In this document: piece by piece, positions 54,096 through 60,025 of the stretch | How positions within the stretch are numbered: the first letter of the stretch is position 1 | Layout of the letters: each line of letters starts with the position of its first letter | NCBI GenBank assembly: GCA_019187105.1 | Contig: JABAQM010000001.1 | Location: forward strand, 1,364,001-1,428,000 | Length of the DNA: 64,000 bases | Origin: Fimbriimonadaceae bacterium | GTDB lineage: Bacteria; Armatimonadota; Fimbriimonadia; Fimbriimonadales; Fimbriimonadaceae | Direction of reading: 5' to 3' | Translations under genes and position numbers: made by a program | Notes under the pieces: model-generated | The model's database searches: none | Seen by the model: only the letters and a program-made list of their open reading frames with translations | What the model was told of the DNA's origin: nothing

Positions 54096-54146
54096 GGGTT
54101 GGCCGAGTGTACCTATCGGTTCAGCAGGTAAAAATGGAGCGAGGTG

Positions 54147-54827
54147 ATGATGAGGTCGATTGGTTTTGGATTGGCATTGGCGCTTACGGCGCTAAGTTTC
54201 GCACAGGACAAGGTGAAGCTCGAGCCGACGGCGAAGGCCGGAGAATCGGTCAAACAGGCGTTGGAAGTGGACTATGACTTTGGAGGCACGGTGGCGAAAC
54301 TCTCCTGCCGAATGCTGACCAAGTTCAAAAAGTCGACCGGCTCCAACGTCGACAAAACTATCGATTACGAGGACCTCAAGGTCGTCGCGGACGAGAACGA
54401 ACTGCCCCTCCAGGTCTCCCAGGTCGAGTTCTCGCTTGCCGCAAACGGAGAGCTCAAGGAGCTGACCGGAGGGGTCGAGGGCAACGACAATGCCCGCACC
54501 TATCTCCTCATCATGTTCATTGCTCCCGACAAGGAGCTCGCCGCAAACGAGAAATGGACGTTCGAGTCCAAGGGCAATGACAAGTCAGGGATACCGGGTT
54601 ACAAGTACGAAGCCACCTTTGTGGGGATGGAGAAGGTTGGCGCAGACGACGCCTACAAGTACACCACCAAGCTAGGCGAGTCAGGCGGAGGCTTTAGCGT
54701 CAAGGGAACCTACTGGGTGACCAAGGACGGCAAGGTCCTGAAAGCCGACAATGAATTCACGGCCCTGATGATCCCTGCCGCCGGCGCAGAGGCAAGCGGA
54801 AAAGTGCGATTGTCCCTCGTCAAGTGA
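54147..54827 (+). CDS. Secreted protein of unknown function
   Basis: 226 residues. Three start codons lie close together (GTG 54144, ATG 54147, ATG 54150); ATG at 54147 is chosen for its distance from GGAG. Signal peptide MMRSIGFGLALALTALSFAQ. The mature part is beta-rich with regular charged strands (KLEPTAKAGESVKQALEVDYDFGG; KWTFESKGNDKSG; GTYWVTKDGKVLKAD) and no motif I know. Base use fits its neighbours. It lies just ahead of the Dop/UBact group, in the same direction, but with a 130-base gap, so a link is uncertain. Confidence 0.7.
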   Translation: MMRSIGFGLALALTALSFAQDKVKLEPTAKAGESVKQALEVDYDFGGTVAKLSCRMLTKFKKSTGSNVDKTIDYEDLKVVADENELPLQVSQVEFSLAANGELKELTGGVEGNDNARTYLLIMFIAPDKELAANEKWTFESKGNDKSGIPGYKYEATFVGMEKVGADDAYKYTTKLGESGGGFSVKGTYWVTKDGKVLKADNEFTALMIPAAGAEASGKVRLSLVK

Positions 54828-54957
54828 GGTCTCAGGCAATTCGCCGATAACGTCGCGGGAGTCCAAACGTCGTAAGTTCGTACAAACGCGGCGGCTCCGT
54901 TCCAGCTATACTGGGCGAACGAACCGGGTGTCTGCTGCGGTCTTGCGTGAAGAGAAG

Positions 54958-56340
54958 ATGATGTTGAAGAAATGGCTCTATGCCGCGCCATTTGCGGCCA
55001 TGATCGGCGTGATCGGGTGCGGCGGTCTGAATTCAGGAACAGATGGGACGACGGGCACCGGTGGGGGAACCGGATCCACGGGTGGCGGTGGCAGCGGTGG
55101 AACCACATCGGGACCTGGCCTCGGACCGGTCTTCAGGTTCACCGGTGTTGGTGAAGTTCAAGTCGCCTTCTTGACCGGCCAGGGCCGCGAGATTGGCTCG
55201 CTCATTGCGGTCATCCGAAACATCGAATTCACCGATACCATCGGTCGAGTCCCGACCCTCGACCAACAGTCGTTCCCGCCACTTAGACTCCAGCTGGACG
55301 GCTACACCTACAATTCTCGAACCTTCACGGTGGACGTACCATCGACCCAACAGACCCGGTACTTCCCGACGTTCCCGTTCGAGGTCTATTCGATGGAGGA
55401 GATCGTCGACGAGACCGGCGCGACCCGCCCGGTTACGAACGAGCTTCCGGCCTTCGTTTATCGAGATATCAACGCCGATCTTCGCGTCTTCCCGGGCCGG
55501 CAAGTCTCTCTCCAGATCTTCTTGGACGACGACATGCTCGGCTTCGACGGCACGGACGTCACCTTCGATGAGGCCAATTTCATCGCCAAGAACTACACCG
55601 ACGGAAAGGTCGGCAGCTTTTTCAGCGACTACGTTTCCTTCGACCTGACCCAAATGGCCGATGCCGATCGCCCGACTATGTTCAATGGCTCGAAAGCCAA
55701 GCATGTGCTGTTCAGCGGCGATGCGATCGCCGTTGCCAGCGAGTATGGGATCGAGGGCGGTCTCGAAGTCCTCCAGCCGGTCCGCGCCACCAACGGCACG
55801 ATCAACCTGCCCACGCTGATCGGCAGCGACCCGACGATCGAGGGCGGCAAGTCTCCGGGATCGTACTCGCTGTTCCAAGGCGACCCGCGCGACCTTTCCG
55901 GACAAGCCAAGCTAACCTCGCTCTCCGGCAACTGGCGCAGCGTAACCGATGTGATTTCGAACATCCCCGAGTGGATGTTCCTCACGATGCCGACCAGCAA
56001 CGACATCGACACCGAGTCGGACATTACCAACGAGCAGCAGGTCATCCTGTTCCGGCAGCAGTCCGGAAAGGTGCTCGCCATGTGGCAGGGCAAGATCACC
56101 TACCGCGACGTGAATGGCGATGGCGTGCAGGACGAAGGCAGCTTCTCGGTCTGGCCCATTAATCAGGTTGTCGACGCGACCGCCGTCAATCAAGTTGATG
56201 GCACGGTTTCCAACCTCGTCGTCCGGTCCGACGCTGCCACGGTTGGCAAGTTCAACGTCTTCGGCGGCAACTTTACGATCACCACTAACGTTCCCGCAGC
56301 CGCTCCGGCGGCCGGCACCTTCTACGTCTTCAGGAGGTAA
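54958..56340 (+). CDS. Secreted lipoprotein with Gly/Thr-rich linker, unknown function
   Basis: 460 residues from ATG at 54958 (a second ATG at 54961 is equally possible; an upstream in-frame GTG at 54928 is less likely). Signal AAPFAAMIGVIGC has a lipobox, with the lipid Cys near residue 21. A flexible linker (GTDGTTGTGGGTGSTGGGG) leads into a beta-rich domain (FRFTGVGEVQVAFLTGQGREIGS) and later strands. An EF-hand-like DVNGDGVQDEG calcium motif is near residue 390. No family recognised. It ends TAATG with the dop start inside, so translation of dop is coupled to it; a functional link is possible but unproven. Confidence 0.75.
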   Translation: MMLKKWLYAAPFAAMIGVIGCGGLNSGTDGTTGTGGGTGSTGGGGSGGTTSGPGLGPVFRFTGVGEVQVAFLTGQGREIGSLIAVIRNIEFTDTIGRVPTLDQQSFPPLRLQLDGYTYNSRTFTVDVPSTQQTRYFPTFPFEVYSMEEIVDETGATRPVTNELPAFVYRDINADLRVFPGRQVSLQIFLDDDMLGFDGTDVTFDEANFIAKNYTDGKVGSFFSDYVSFDLTQMADADRPTMFNGSKAKHVLFSGDAIAVASEYGIEGGLEVLQPVRATNGTINLPTLIGSDPTIEGGKSPGSYSLFQGDPRDLSGQAKLTSLSGNWRSVTDVISNIPEWMFLTMPTSNDIDTESDITNEQQVILFRQQSGKVLAMWQGKITYRDVNGDGVQDEGSFSVWPINQVVDATAVNQVDGTVSNLVVRSDAATVGKFNVFGGNFTITTNVPAAAPAAGTFYVFRR

Positions 56341-57809
56341 TGAACCGAATCCTCGCCGGGATTGAGACCGAGTATGGGTTCTCGATCCCGGGACGGGGAG
56401 CGGTCGATCAGATCGACGACGCCGTAGGGCTGGTCTCGTCGTATCCAGGTCCATCCTTCATCGGCTGGGACTACCGTTTTGAATCCCCGCGCTCCGATCT
56501 TCGGGGCTTTACCGTCGAGCGGTTGGCCGAAGACCCCATCGACAGGGAATTCGATCGCGCGGCACCGCCTCGGCGGATGGAAGAAGTGCGGGCTGACCGA
56601 GTGCTCGCCAACGGCGCCCGCTTTTACAACGATCACGGCCATCCCGAATATGCCACGCCGGAATGCTGGAGTCTCGCCGGGCTTGCCGCCCACGACCGGG
56701 CCGGTGAATTCGTCGTGCTGCGTTCGGCTGAAGCCCTCGGCAAGCAGATCGGCGCGGAAATCGATGTCTACAAGAACAACACGGACTACCATGGGGCGTC
56801 CTATGGGACCCATGAGAACTACCTCGTTCCCAGAAGCATTGGGTTCGAGAACCTGGTACAAGCGCTGCTTCCGCTCTTTGTCGTTAGACCCCTGCTGTGC
56901 GGAGCAGGCAAGGTCGGGTCAGAGCACGGCGCTTGGGTGGACTTTCAGGCCAGCCAACGTGCCGACTTCTTTGCCGAGCCCGTCAACGCGGAAACCCTCT
57001 ACCGCCGACCGATCTTCAATACTCGCGACGAGCCGCATGCCGATCCGAGCACATGGATCCGGCTGCATGTGATCTGCGGTGACGCCAATCGCATCGAGGG
57101 TTGCACTCGTCGAAAGGCGGCGCTAGTGAAGATCGCCCTGATGCTGGCGCTCATCGGCGAGATACCCAACTGGGCCCTCGCCGACCCCGTTCACGCCGCC
57201 CAGATCGTCAGCCGCCGCTTGGATTTCGGGGCGAGGATCGATCTGCAAGGCGGAAGCTGGACAACGGCCCGCCACATCGTCGAGTCCTATCTGGACCACG
57301 CGGACCGCTTACTGGACCTTGACGACGAGCTTCGCCAGGAAGTTGACCTTTGCCGCCGCCTGATGGACGCCTTCGACGAGAACTTCCAGGAGTTTTCTCG
57401 ATCAGTCGATTGGGCGGCCAAGTACAACCTGCTGCTCCATTACCGCGAAGAAGAAGGTATCGAATGGCGCGATCCCGCCATGCAGGCCGTCGATCTGGAG
57501 TACCACGAGCTCGATCCCGTAAATGGACTGTTCGAGGCGATGGTTGAAAGTGGCGCTATCGAGCCCCAAGTGGGGATCGACATCGGGACGCTGCTTACTC
57601 AACCTGAGAGCACGCGAGCGATGGCGCGCAGCCAGGCGGTCACCAACTTTCGCCAGAGCCTCGTGAGCTGCTGCTGGCGTAGCCTGACGTTGGATGTTGG
57701 TGGTCGGTCCCTCACCGTGGACCTCGAACCGGACCGAGAATACAAATCGGAACAGCCGGATACTCAAGACGTATTAGAATGGATAAGGAGCATTGCCCCA
57801 GCAAAATGA
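56340..57809 (+). CDS. dop: Dop, deamidase/depupylase of the ubiquitin-like tag
   Basis: 489 residues. Carboxylate-amine/glutamine-synthetase-like fold: catalytic GIETEYG at 7-13, NGARFYNDHGHPEYATPE, YKNNTDYHGASYGTHENYL (Dop-type; PafA has a Cys or Ser in place of Thr in that His-Glu-Asn segment), RLHVICGDANR and FEFS-type text. By these it is Dop rather than PafA. It deamidates the C-terminal Gln of the tag and removes tags from proteins. UBact ends in Gln, which agrees. It begins at the last base of the lipoprotein gene and overlaps ubact by 4 bases. Confidence 0.93.
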   Translation: MNRILAGIETEYGFSIPGRGAVDQIDDAVGLVSSYPGPSFIGWDYRFESPRSDLRGFTVERLAEDPIDREFDRAAPPRRMEEVRADRVLANGARFYNDHGHPEYATPECWSLAGLAAHDRAGEFVVLRSAEALGKQIGAEIDVYKNNTDYHGASYGTHENYLVPRSIGFENLVQALLPLFVVRPLLCGAGKVGSEHGAWVDFQASQRADFFAEPVNAETLYRRPIFNTRDEPHADPSTWIRLHVICGDANRIEGCTRRKAALVKIALMLALIGEIPNWALADPVHAAQIVSRRLDFGARIDLQGGSWTTARHIVESYLDHADRLLDLDDELRQEVDLCRRLMDAFDENFQEFSRSVDWAAKYNLLLHYREEEGIEWRDPAMQAVDLEYHELDPVNGLFEAMVESGAIEPQVGIDIGTLLTQPESTRAMARSQAVTNFRQSLVSCCWRSLTLDVGGRSLTVDLEPDREYKSEQPDTQDVLEWIRSIAPAK

Positions 57810-57991
57810 GTTTTCAAGCCGACCGAACGACACGACCGACCGCTCCCGAGCCCGAGCGCAAGCTCGGTGATGAAGGCGGGCCCAGCAAGCCAGACCTTAA
57901 CCGGCCGGTGCCTCCCAATGAGCTAATGCGACGGCTGAAGAAGGTCGACCCTGACCAAGCGAAGCGGTATCGACAACGAAGCGGCCAATGA
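57806..57991 (+). CDS. UBact, prokaryotic ubiquitin-like protein
   Basis: 61 residues from the ATG at 57806, an ATGA overlap with dop; AAGGAG (57785-57790) is 15 bases upstream. The first half is hydrophilic and disordered (EPERKLGDEGGPSKPDLNRPV); the second half is the UBact core, NELMRRLKKVDPDQAKRYRQRSGQ. The L-x-x-R-x-x-K-V-D-P-x-Q-A-x-R-Y-R-Q-R-S-G-Q end is the hallmark of UBact, a Pup relative known from Nitrospirota, Armatimonadota and others. It ends in Gly-Gln, so Dop must convert Gln to Glu before ligation. Confidence 0.92.
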   Translation: MSFQADRTTRPTAPEPERKLGDEGGPSKPDLNRPVPPNELMRRLKKVDPDQAKRYRQRSGQ

Positions 57992-58728
57992 TCGCTCCCA
58001 GTCCAAAGACTTTCGCCGAGTTGGTCGGCTATAGCCCGAGCCCGATCTCGACTGAGCACACGCACGGAACAACCGTTATCATGCTCCGATACGATGAGGG
58101 GGTCCTGACCCTTGCCGACCGTCGGGCGACCATCGGCAATCTCATCATGTTTGAGCAAGCCGACAAAGTGATGGCGCTAGACGATCAAACCGTCGTGGCC
58201 ATCAGCGGCTCCTATGCCAAGGCCTTTGAAGTTTGCCGGTTCCTGAAGCACAGCTTCAAGTACTACGCTCGTATGCACCTTCAGCCCATGTCGCTTGACG
58301 GCAAACTGCAAGAGATCTCGCGGACGCTGGTTAGCAATCTCGGTTCGGCAATGGAAGGCATTGGGCTGTTTCTGCCGATCCTCGGCGCGTACGATCCCAG
58401 GCTCGACGACTTTCGAGTCTTCTTCTTCGATGCGGCCGGTGCTAAATTCGACGGCGACGAGTACGCCGCTGCCGGAAGTGGCTCGGAGCGCATCCGCGGC
58501 ATTTTCGAATACCAGGCGCGCACGAAAGGGCCGTGGTCCAAGCGGAAGCTGAAGGATGCCTTGTTCGACGGTTTGACCATGCTGGACATCGCGGCCGACC
58601 TCGACTCCGCGACCGGCGGCTTTGTCAAAATCCCTCCGATCGCGCGGGTTCTCGACCGACAGGGAACGCGACCTCTGCCCAACGCGATGGTCGACGAGAC
58701 CGTGAAGCGCGTTCTCGCCATTCAATAG
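57988..58728 (+). CDS. prcB: Proteasome beta subunit PrcB
   Basis: 246 residues. A 27-residue propeptide ends HTHG and cleavage frees Thr28 (TTVIMLRYDEG). Counting from Thr1, Asp17 and Lys33 are in place (LADRRATIG and DKVM), so the active site is complete. Later text: VVAISGSYAKAFEVCRFL, LPILGAYDP, FFDAAGAKFDGDEYAAAGSGS, and a C-terminal tail. 20S proteasome beta-type protease. It overlaps ubact by 4 bases. The alpha subunit (prcA), usually next, is not here. Confidence 0.93.
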   Translation: MIAPSPKTFAELVGYSPSPISTEHTHGTTVIMLRYDEGVLTLADRRATIGNLIMFEQADKVMALDDQTVVAISGSYAKAFEVCRFLKHSFKYYARMHLQPMSLDGKLQEISRTLVSNLGSAMEGIGLFLPILGAYDPRLDDFRVFFFDAAGAKFDGDEYAAAGSGSERIRGIFEYQARTKGPWSKRKLKDALFDGLTMLDIAADLDSATGGFVKIPPIARVLDRQGTRPLPNAMVDETVKRVLAIQ

Positions 58729-58753
58729 GAACGCGAAGTATCCTCATAGCGCC

Positions 58754-60025
58754 TTGATCAAACAAAAGCTTGCCATTCGGATCGCGATCTGGCTCTTTTC
58801 CATCGCCGTCCTGTTCGGCGTCTACCAATGGTATCGAGGCCTTGGTCACGACATCGACTTGCCCGTCCAAGTGGACACCAACGGCTACATCGCCGCGATT
58901 GAGCGAAAGGAGGAGGGCTCCGTCGCCGTTATCTTCAAGCCGGACGGCACCAAGATCGAAGCGCCCGGCTACAAGCCTGGGGTCGAAGATAAGGAGATCG
59001 TCTGGCGACCGGACGGAAACAGGCTGTTCTTTTCGAGCGACCGCATCGACGGAAGCTTCAATATCTACCGCTGGAATACGGACCGTGGGGTCGCCGAGCG
59101 ACGGTCGCTCGGCTCGAGGAGCCAAAGCAACGCCACGTTCGGTCCCAAGGGGTATTCGGGCGACCTTTCCAAGCCATTGATCATCGCCGGCGGATTCGTC
59201 CTCGAGCTCGATCCCAAGGAAGGCGCGGCGAACCAGATCCTCCCTCCCATTCAGCGCGAGATCGCTCAGGCAGGAGAAGAGCAGACGACGGCTGACCAGT
59301 TCTCCACGCTTTACAGCCGGATCGGCACGAGCTTCAAGGATGCCAGGTGGGGAAAGAACCGGGAGTACATCGTGGCGGTCATGCGACGGGAAGGCGGCGA
59401 GGTTCTCGTCATCCAGCCAACCGGCACCGTTAAGGCCGAGGACGGAACCGAGAAGCAGGCCCCACCTGTGCTAATCGAGGCTGGCGATAAGGTCGAAATC
59501 GATGTGGCAGCGAGCGGCCTAGTCGTGGCTGCAATTACGGGCTACCAATTCCCCAATCCCCACGACATCCCGGAGGAATTCATCAAGAACAACCGCGTCG
59601 TGCCGCCGTTCCGCCACGCGATGGTGATTGTCGACCCCTCGATGCTTCAAAAGGGGGGAACGTCCCAAGCTGTCTACCTCAGCAAAGACGACCAGCTTTG
59701 CTTGCAGCAGCCCAGGTTTTCACCCGATGGCTCCAAGGTGCTTGCCGTTGGTGGATCCATCGTCGACGGGGCCAACTTCGTTCCAAAGGCCCTGGTTTCG
59801 ATGCCGGCCGTCGCGAATGGGTTCGAAAATCAGTCCGCTCTCGTGTTGGGCGAAGTTCGAGATCCATCCTGGCATCCGCAAGGGCGCGAGATTGTTTACG
59901 TCAAGAAGGACGCTGAAAGTCCTCGAGCGATTTACCGAGTCGGCGCAGATGGGTCCAACGAGAAGCGAGTTAGTCAGGGCACCGCATCCTATGTGGGTCC
60001 GTCCTTCAGCCCCCAATCTCGGTAA
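58754..60025 (+). CDS. TolB-like membrane-anchored beta-propeller protein
   Basis: 423 residues; TTG start at 58754 (no nearby ATG). One N-terminal membrane helix (IRIAIWLFSIAVLFGVYQWY) then WD40/TolB-like repeats with W-x-P-D-G and F-S-x-D-G signs: IVWRPDGNRLFFSSDRIDGSF, PRFSPDGSKVLAVGG, PSWHPQGREIVYVKKD, SFSPQSR at the end. It follows prcB by 25 bases in the same direction, so it may belong to the same unit. Function is unknown. The end overlaps the oxidoreductase gene by 20 bases. Confidence 0.75.
   Translation: MIKQKLAIRIAIWLFSIAVLFGVYQWYRGLGHDIDLPVQVDTNGYIAAIERKEEGSVAVIFKPDGTKIEAPGYKPGVEDKEIVWRPDGNRLFFSSDRIDGSFNIYRWNTDRGVAERRSLGSRSQSNATFGPKGYSGDLSKPLIIAGGFVLELDPKEGAANQILPPIQREIAQAGEEQTTADQFSTLYSRIGTSFKDARWGKNREYIVAVMRREGGEVLVIQPTGTVKAEDGTEKQAPPVLIEAGDKVEIDVAASGLVVAAITGYQFPNPHDIPEEFIKNNRVVPPFRHAMVIVDPSMLQKGGTSQAVYLSKDDQLCLQQPRFSPDGSKVLAVGGSIVDGANFVPKALVSMPAVANGFENQSALVLGEVRDPSWHPQGREIVYVKKDAESPRAIYRVGADGSNEKRVSQGTASYVGPSFSPQSR

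Follow-up and report, generated by a model that had tools for sequence, protein, structure and literature searches.

Proposed capture of a dop-ubact-prcB operon remnant by a family-specific lipoprotein gene in Fimbriimonadaceae

Introduction

UBact-proteasome systems have reportedly been described in Gram-negative phyla (Lehmann et al. 2017, BBRC 483:946, as listed in the references of PMC12751074), and they seem to have been little studied since their discovery, as few papers on them were found. The Pup-proteasome of Actinobacteria, which consists of Mpa, PafA, Dop and PrcBA, works with the tag Pup. The mycobacterial ATPase of this system, Mpa, carries GQYL as its C-terminal docking motif (PMC12288473).

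We have analyzed a dop-ubact-prcB locus in a 3.3-Mb genome of Fimbriimonadaceae (phylum Armatimonadota), located inside a stretch of 64,000 nucleotides that we call the window, and compared it with 80 UBact loci drawn from families of the phylum, in which UBact was detected in 168 of 291 genomes.

Results and discussion

Gene content of the locus

The three tagging genes are preceded by a lipoprotein gene and followed by a TolB-like gene (Table 1). The dop product belongs to the Pup_ligase family of Pfam (PF03136, E 1.3e-126) and scored higher with the Dop model (356 bits, below the equivalog cut-off) than with the PafA model (273 bits). It could be aligned over its full length with the solved Dop structure 4b0r (E 3.3e-84), and the alignment spans the Dop-loop region, WDYRFESPRSDLRGF and YNDHGHPEYATPE. 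UBact was recognized by PF20513 (E 9.6e-20) and, above the cut-off, by NF033388; its C-terminus was RSGQ in 36 Fimbriimonadaceae loci and RSGE in 10. PrcB matched the Proteasome family (PF00227, E 7e-23) and 20S_bact_beta (E 7.7e-37), with the residues T28, D44 and K60, which are Thr1, Asp17 and Lys33 of the mature subunit, invariant across 21 sequences. A sequence-only reading of this DNA had named the locus UBact-Dop-PrcB, with a Gly-Gln end on UBact and active sites in Dop and PrcB. The Pup_ligase, UBact and Proteasome models agree with that identification, the 61-aa translation has the RSGQ end, and the active sites are borne out by the 4b0r alignment and the three PrcB residues.

The genes are tightly packed, as that reading had also described. 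The lipoprotein TAA (56338-56340) and the dop ATG (56340-56342) share the junction TAATG, the dop TGA (57807-57809) overlaps the ubact ATG at 57806 in an ATGA step, and a second ATGA joins the end of ubact (57991) to the prcB ATG at 57988. The TolB-like reading frame starts with a TTG at 58754, 25 nt past the end of prcB (58728) and on the same strand, at the distance previously given.

Table 1. Features of the dop-ubact-prcB locus, in positions of the window.
Feature	Position	Strand	Basis or remark
Secreted DUF6263-like protein, 227 aa, looser associate	54144..54827	+	Partial recurrence; possibly its own transcription unit
Candidate -10-like hexamer TATACT	54907..54912	+	Likely operon promoter, upstream of the lipoprotein gene
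Lipoprotein gene, 460 aa, leader gene of the operon	54958..56340	+	Sequence, family alignment, AF2 model, dop linkage
dop, UBact deamidase/de-tagging enzyme, 489 aa	56340..57809	+	PF03136, Dop model above PafA model, 4b0r
ubact, ubiquitin-like tag, 61 aa, C-terminus RSGQ	57806..57991	+	NF033388, PF20513, translation
prcB, 20S proteasome beta subunit, 246 aa, catalytic Thr28	57988..58728	+	PF00227, 20S_bact_beta, T28/D44/K60
TolB-like PD40 membrane protein, judged a neighbour outside the system	58754..60025	+	Single-copy, unlinked ortholog; def-fmt context

The rest of the system and the break-up of the operon

The ligase, the alpha subunit and the unfoldase had been reported missing, which holds for the window and would fit a stripped-down system that does without them. 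We give this reading practically no chance, as searching the genome for pafA, prcA and arc/mpa recovered all three, dispersed and unlinked to dop-ubact-prcB; a minimal system lacking ligase and unfoldase was thus rejected. The compact, "minimal"-looking locus is misleading in this respect. PafA is a second Pup_ligase at C1:2336241, with 286 bits for the PafA model vs 274 for the Dop model, and this gene is the best match of the pafA gene from intact operons. A single-sequence search with its product puts Dop structures first, so the PafA call is based on the model score, the operon position and the absence of the loop. PrcA is encoded at C1:502121 (20S_bact_alpha, E 2.4e-24, below the equivalog cut-off) and an ARC/Mpa-type ATPase at C1:960890 (pup_AAA, 453 bits with a cut-off of 505), whose closest solved relative is a proteasome-associated ATPase. 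The genome also codes for HslV (C1:3023335), which is separate from PrcA and PrcB. Among 85 Fimbriimonadaceae genomes, 83 have Pup_ligase, 78 have PrcA and 80 have ARC; G132 and G133, both of 1.5 Mb and from one reduced genus, are without UBact, Dop, PafA, PrcA, ARC and the lipoprotein.

Where pafA, prcA and arc have moved to, no conserved partners were found; the pairs HxlR-pafA, pgk-prcA and MFS-arc seen in this genome were absent from the roughly 20 relatives compared for each. The HxlR-type regulator (L002:1116-1475) ends 4 nt before pafA here and is absent before pafA in 19 relatives.

Most other families of the phylum keep arc-dop-ubact-prcB-prcA-pafA as one operon. Families f3 and f4 have a dop-ubact-prcB-prcA-pafA run, the operon of the sister family f2 is more broken, and only dop-ubact-prcB are still together in Fimbriimonadaceae. 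A second, independent collection gave the same gene layouts, including the lipoprotein gene before dop. Judged by family models and gene order, the UBact-proteasome system here is complete and its ancestral six-gene operon was broken up in Fimbriimonadaceae; the phylum documents a path from one operon of six genes to four scattered units.

The TolB-like gene

The sequence-only reading had also proposed that both flanking genes belong to the system. For the TolB-like gene, the distance of 25 nt to prcB on the same strand is what speaks for such a role, which we nevertheless consider very improbable. The gene was beside UBact in 0 of the 80 other loci. Of 113 genomes of the order, 111 have it as a single-copy ortholog, and none but this one has it linked to UBact; the two genomes without the tagging system also have it (weak matches there). 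In 11 of the 17 relatives whose gene context could be read, it lies directly after an fmt-like gene, mostly as def-fmt-TolB-like, with the names def and fmt being our reading of those sequences. As a system component it was therefore ruled out, and from these gene contexts its position beside prcB is best explained as a local rearrangement that made it a chance neighbour. The protein shares with TolB of the Tol-Pal system a WD40-like PD40 repeat, which matches the TolB model towards its C-terminal end, but differs from it in its score (TIGR02800, 53.6 bits vs a cut-off of 343), its membrane anchor and the def-fmt linkage.

The lipoprotein and its linkage to dop

The lipoprotein contains a lipobox (VIGC, with the cysteine at position 21 of the 460-aa form), a Gly-rich linker and an exported part predicted to form two all-beta domains. 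Lipobox and linker are present in nearly all copies, and the residues G20, C21 and G23 (Gly-Cys-x-Gly) are invariant in an alignment of 39 sequences. Pfam gave no family for the window protein and none common to 45 members. The AlphaFold2 model is all-beta, with a pLDDT of 84.5 for the whole and 90.8 for the C-terminal domain. Searching the PDB with the lipoprotein models returned no Foldseek match at E below 0.001, and a sequence-profile search against the PDB returned nothing convincing. The best VIA matches were a Bacteroides fimbrial protein for domain 1 (Z 5.9) and the factor H-binding protein barrel for domain 2 (Z 5.0), both below the level of kinship. Our literature search found no paper on the lipoprotein or on Fimbriimonas proteasomes. 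The protein probably works in the envelope and would have no direct part in tagging, which is cytoplasmic.

A strong relative of the lipoprotein is present in 77 of the 85 Fimbriimonadaceae genomes; outside the family no true relative was found, the matches being signal-peptide or glycine-rich scraps only. The gene is immediately upstream of dop in 44 of the 46 Fimbriimonadaceae loci read. Listed positions place the two together in 67 of the 77 carrier genomes, and inspection added G110, G111, G112 and G114, so the linkage holds in at least 71. This recurrence makes the lipoprotein gene part of the operon within Fimbriimonadaceae, so that half of the proposal on the flanking genes stands, restricted to this family; the half concerning the TolB-like gene falls, as the latter did not recur beside UBact in related loci.

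On a tree of Dop and PrcB, the junction of lipoprotein and dop requires one change within the family, and the junction of lipoprotein and YceD requires six. G108 is sister to the remaining Fimbriimonadaceae, on a long branch, and therefore the cassette either came to the lipoprotein gene once this split had occurred or has moved away from it in the G108 genus. The lipoprotein gene of G108 and G109 is found beside YceD-plsX, away from dop, while genus g31 has dop without the lipoprotein (in L130, dop adjoins SUF-like genes). These exceptions indicate that neither gene needs the other.

Several other arrangements were noted. The ARC gene of G108 (G108:C1, L209) is 0.8 kb downstream of the lipoprotein gene on the same strand, which is not so in G109. 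G134 (L214, C1:388293), and also G135, encodes the lipoprotein a second time, in a divergent form (E about 1e-55) and unlinked to tagging genes. The contig JADZEW010000030.1 (L153), titled as a Methanoregulaceae archaeon, bears a Fimbriimonadaceae lipoprotein-dop-ubact-prcB set and looks mislabelled or contaminated.

Could the lipoprotein be a working partner, a sensor or client in the envelope that sets the capacity for tagging and de-tagging, so that disposal follows envelope load? The linkage to dop has been kept over many genera while the neighbouring link to YceD broke several times, and G132 and G133 lack both the lipoprotein and the whole tagging system. However, that shared absence is a single event in a 1.5-Mb genome, the lipobox places the protein outside the cytoplasm, away from Dop, and the system persists without the lipoprotein in g31, as does the lipoprotein without dop linkage in G108 and G109. 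We consider a working partnership unlikely.

A DUF6263-like gene further upstream, which the sequence-only reading did not mention, recurs in part near lipoprotein or dop loci. Eight Fimbriimonadaceae loci have a homologue before the lipoprotein gene, and in family f2 four loci (L298, L300, L302 and L304) have one immediately before dop; the best DUF6263 E value in relatives was 3.7e-5. A single ancient dop-linked gene was not supported. As these genes form a multi-copy family whose linked copies are not one clade, we leave this gene as a lead.

Start signals at the lipoprotein and dop genes

In 30 of 38 loci, the distance from the lipoprotein stop to the dop start is between -4 and +12 nt. 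Shine-Dalgarno (SD)-like 4-mers precede 33 of 43 lipoprotein starts in Fimbriimonadaceae vs 4 of 40 dop starts, with a background of 10%. Outside the family an SD motif was found before dop in 7 of 26 cases, so this contrast is partly ancestral, as dop is mostly without such motifs there too. The window has the reverse pattern, with AGGAGG 2 nt before the dop ATG and a lipoprotein gene without an SD-like 4-mer.

The contrast in -10 boxes is a stronger sign than the SD contrast. At the leaderless position before dop, a -10 box was found in 0 of 37 Fimbriimonadaceae loci vs 6 of 33 outside the family, 5 of those 6 being in f2 to f4. Most of the dop genes read from the sister families thus have a -10 box of their own there. 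The dop genes of f3 and f4 (L088, L089, L090 and L091) carry a TATAAT or TATACT whose first base is exactly 12 nt upstream of the GTG start, an exact spacing that points to a putative leaderless mRNA, and several f2 loci have -10 matches at or near this position. The lipoprotein gene has a -10 box within 90 nt upstream in 28 of 43 Fimbriimonadaceae loci, nearly always TATACT (background 5%), and these putative promoters share the consensus TTGCTATACT. The TATACT of the window is the only one in 54800-54960 and one of two on its plus strand; a consensus scan gave no sigma-70 -35/-10 pair.

A block similar to CGTCnnACACAAGG was seen about 20 nt upstream of TTGCTATACT in many of the putative lipoprotein promoters (for example, L051, L053, L055 and L044).

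A possible takeover by the lipoprotein gene

Starting from what is observed, namely the parts, their order and recurrence, the gap sizes and the loss of the dop -10 box, we propose that the start signals of dop-ubact-prcB were lost and that the lipoprotein gene captured these genes, for both promoter and translation, with the TolB-like gene excluded. We hold this to be probable, with considerable room for doubt. Against it stand the reversed SD pattern of the window, the failure of the consensus scan to give a -35/-10 pair, and the exceptions G108, G109 and g31. The remnant of the broken operon would have lost its signals, and transcription would begin at the lipoprotein promoter. Having finished the lipoprotein, ribosomes may then reinitiate at the dop start codon, which overlaps the lipoprotein stop codon. 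By analogy with the known Pup pathway, Dop would convert the C-terminal Gln of UBact to Glu and also remove the tag, PafA would join UBact to lysines, ARC would unfold the tagged proteins and the 20S core of PrcA and PrcB would degrade them.

The proximity of the two genes might also be inherited neighbourhood only, the cassette having landed behind the lipoprotein gene once, with nothing forcing a separation. The single origin on the Dop and PrcB tree agrees with this, as do the confinement of the lipoprotein to one family and the upstream plsX-YceD, which is likewise often retained. Inertia, however, predicts neither a junction fused to a few nucleotides in most loci nor the loss of the -10 box by dop, and the lipoprotein-dop junction outlasts that with YceD, so we regard it as unlikely that neighbourhood is the whole explanation.

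If the lipoprotein gene did capture the cassette, a stronger version would have Dop, UBact and PrcB made only in step with translation of the exported lipoprotein, wiring tagging to the envelope throughout the family. Tag recycling and degradation would then fall immediately whenever the synthesis of envelope proteins is blocked. We think it quite unlikely that the coupling goes this far. What the family-specific gene probably takes over is control of the tag and of its recycling enzyme.

Comparison with known systems

The arrangement is new and family-wide in a system of a known kind, in which the promoter of the tag operon and, probably, its translation would have been taken over by the lipoprotein gene. 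As in the UBact-proteasome systems of Gram-negative phyla, UBact, Dop, PafA, PrcA, PrcB and ARC are all present by family model; Fimbriimonadaceae differ in having a broken operon, with dop-ubact-prcB led by the family-specific lipoprotein gene. With the Pup-proteasome of Actinobacteria the system shares the enzyme families, the Dop-loop and active-site motifs and the full 20S active site, although the tag here is UBact and the ATPase tail differs, with SPII at the C-terminus of this ARC in place of GQYL. Relatives of this genome end in KSVI, KTII or RRNII and other families mostly in RRNII or RNVI; the ARC ATPases of Armatimonadota (L006 and L238-L257 in this family, L092-L118 in others) have a conserved R-R/K-N-I/V-I-like tail where the mycobacterial ATPase has its own motif.
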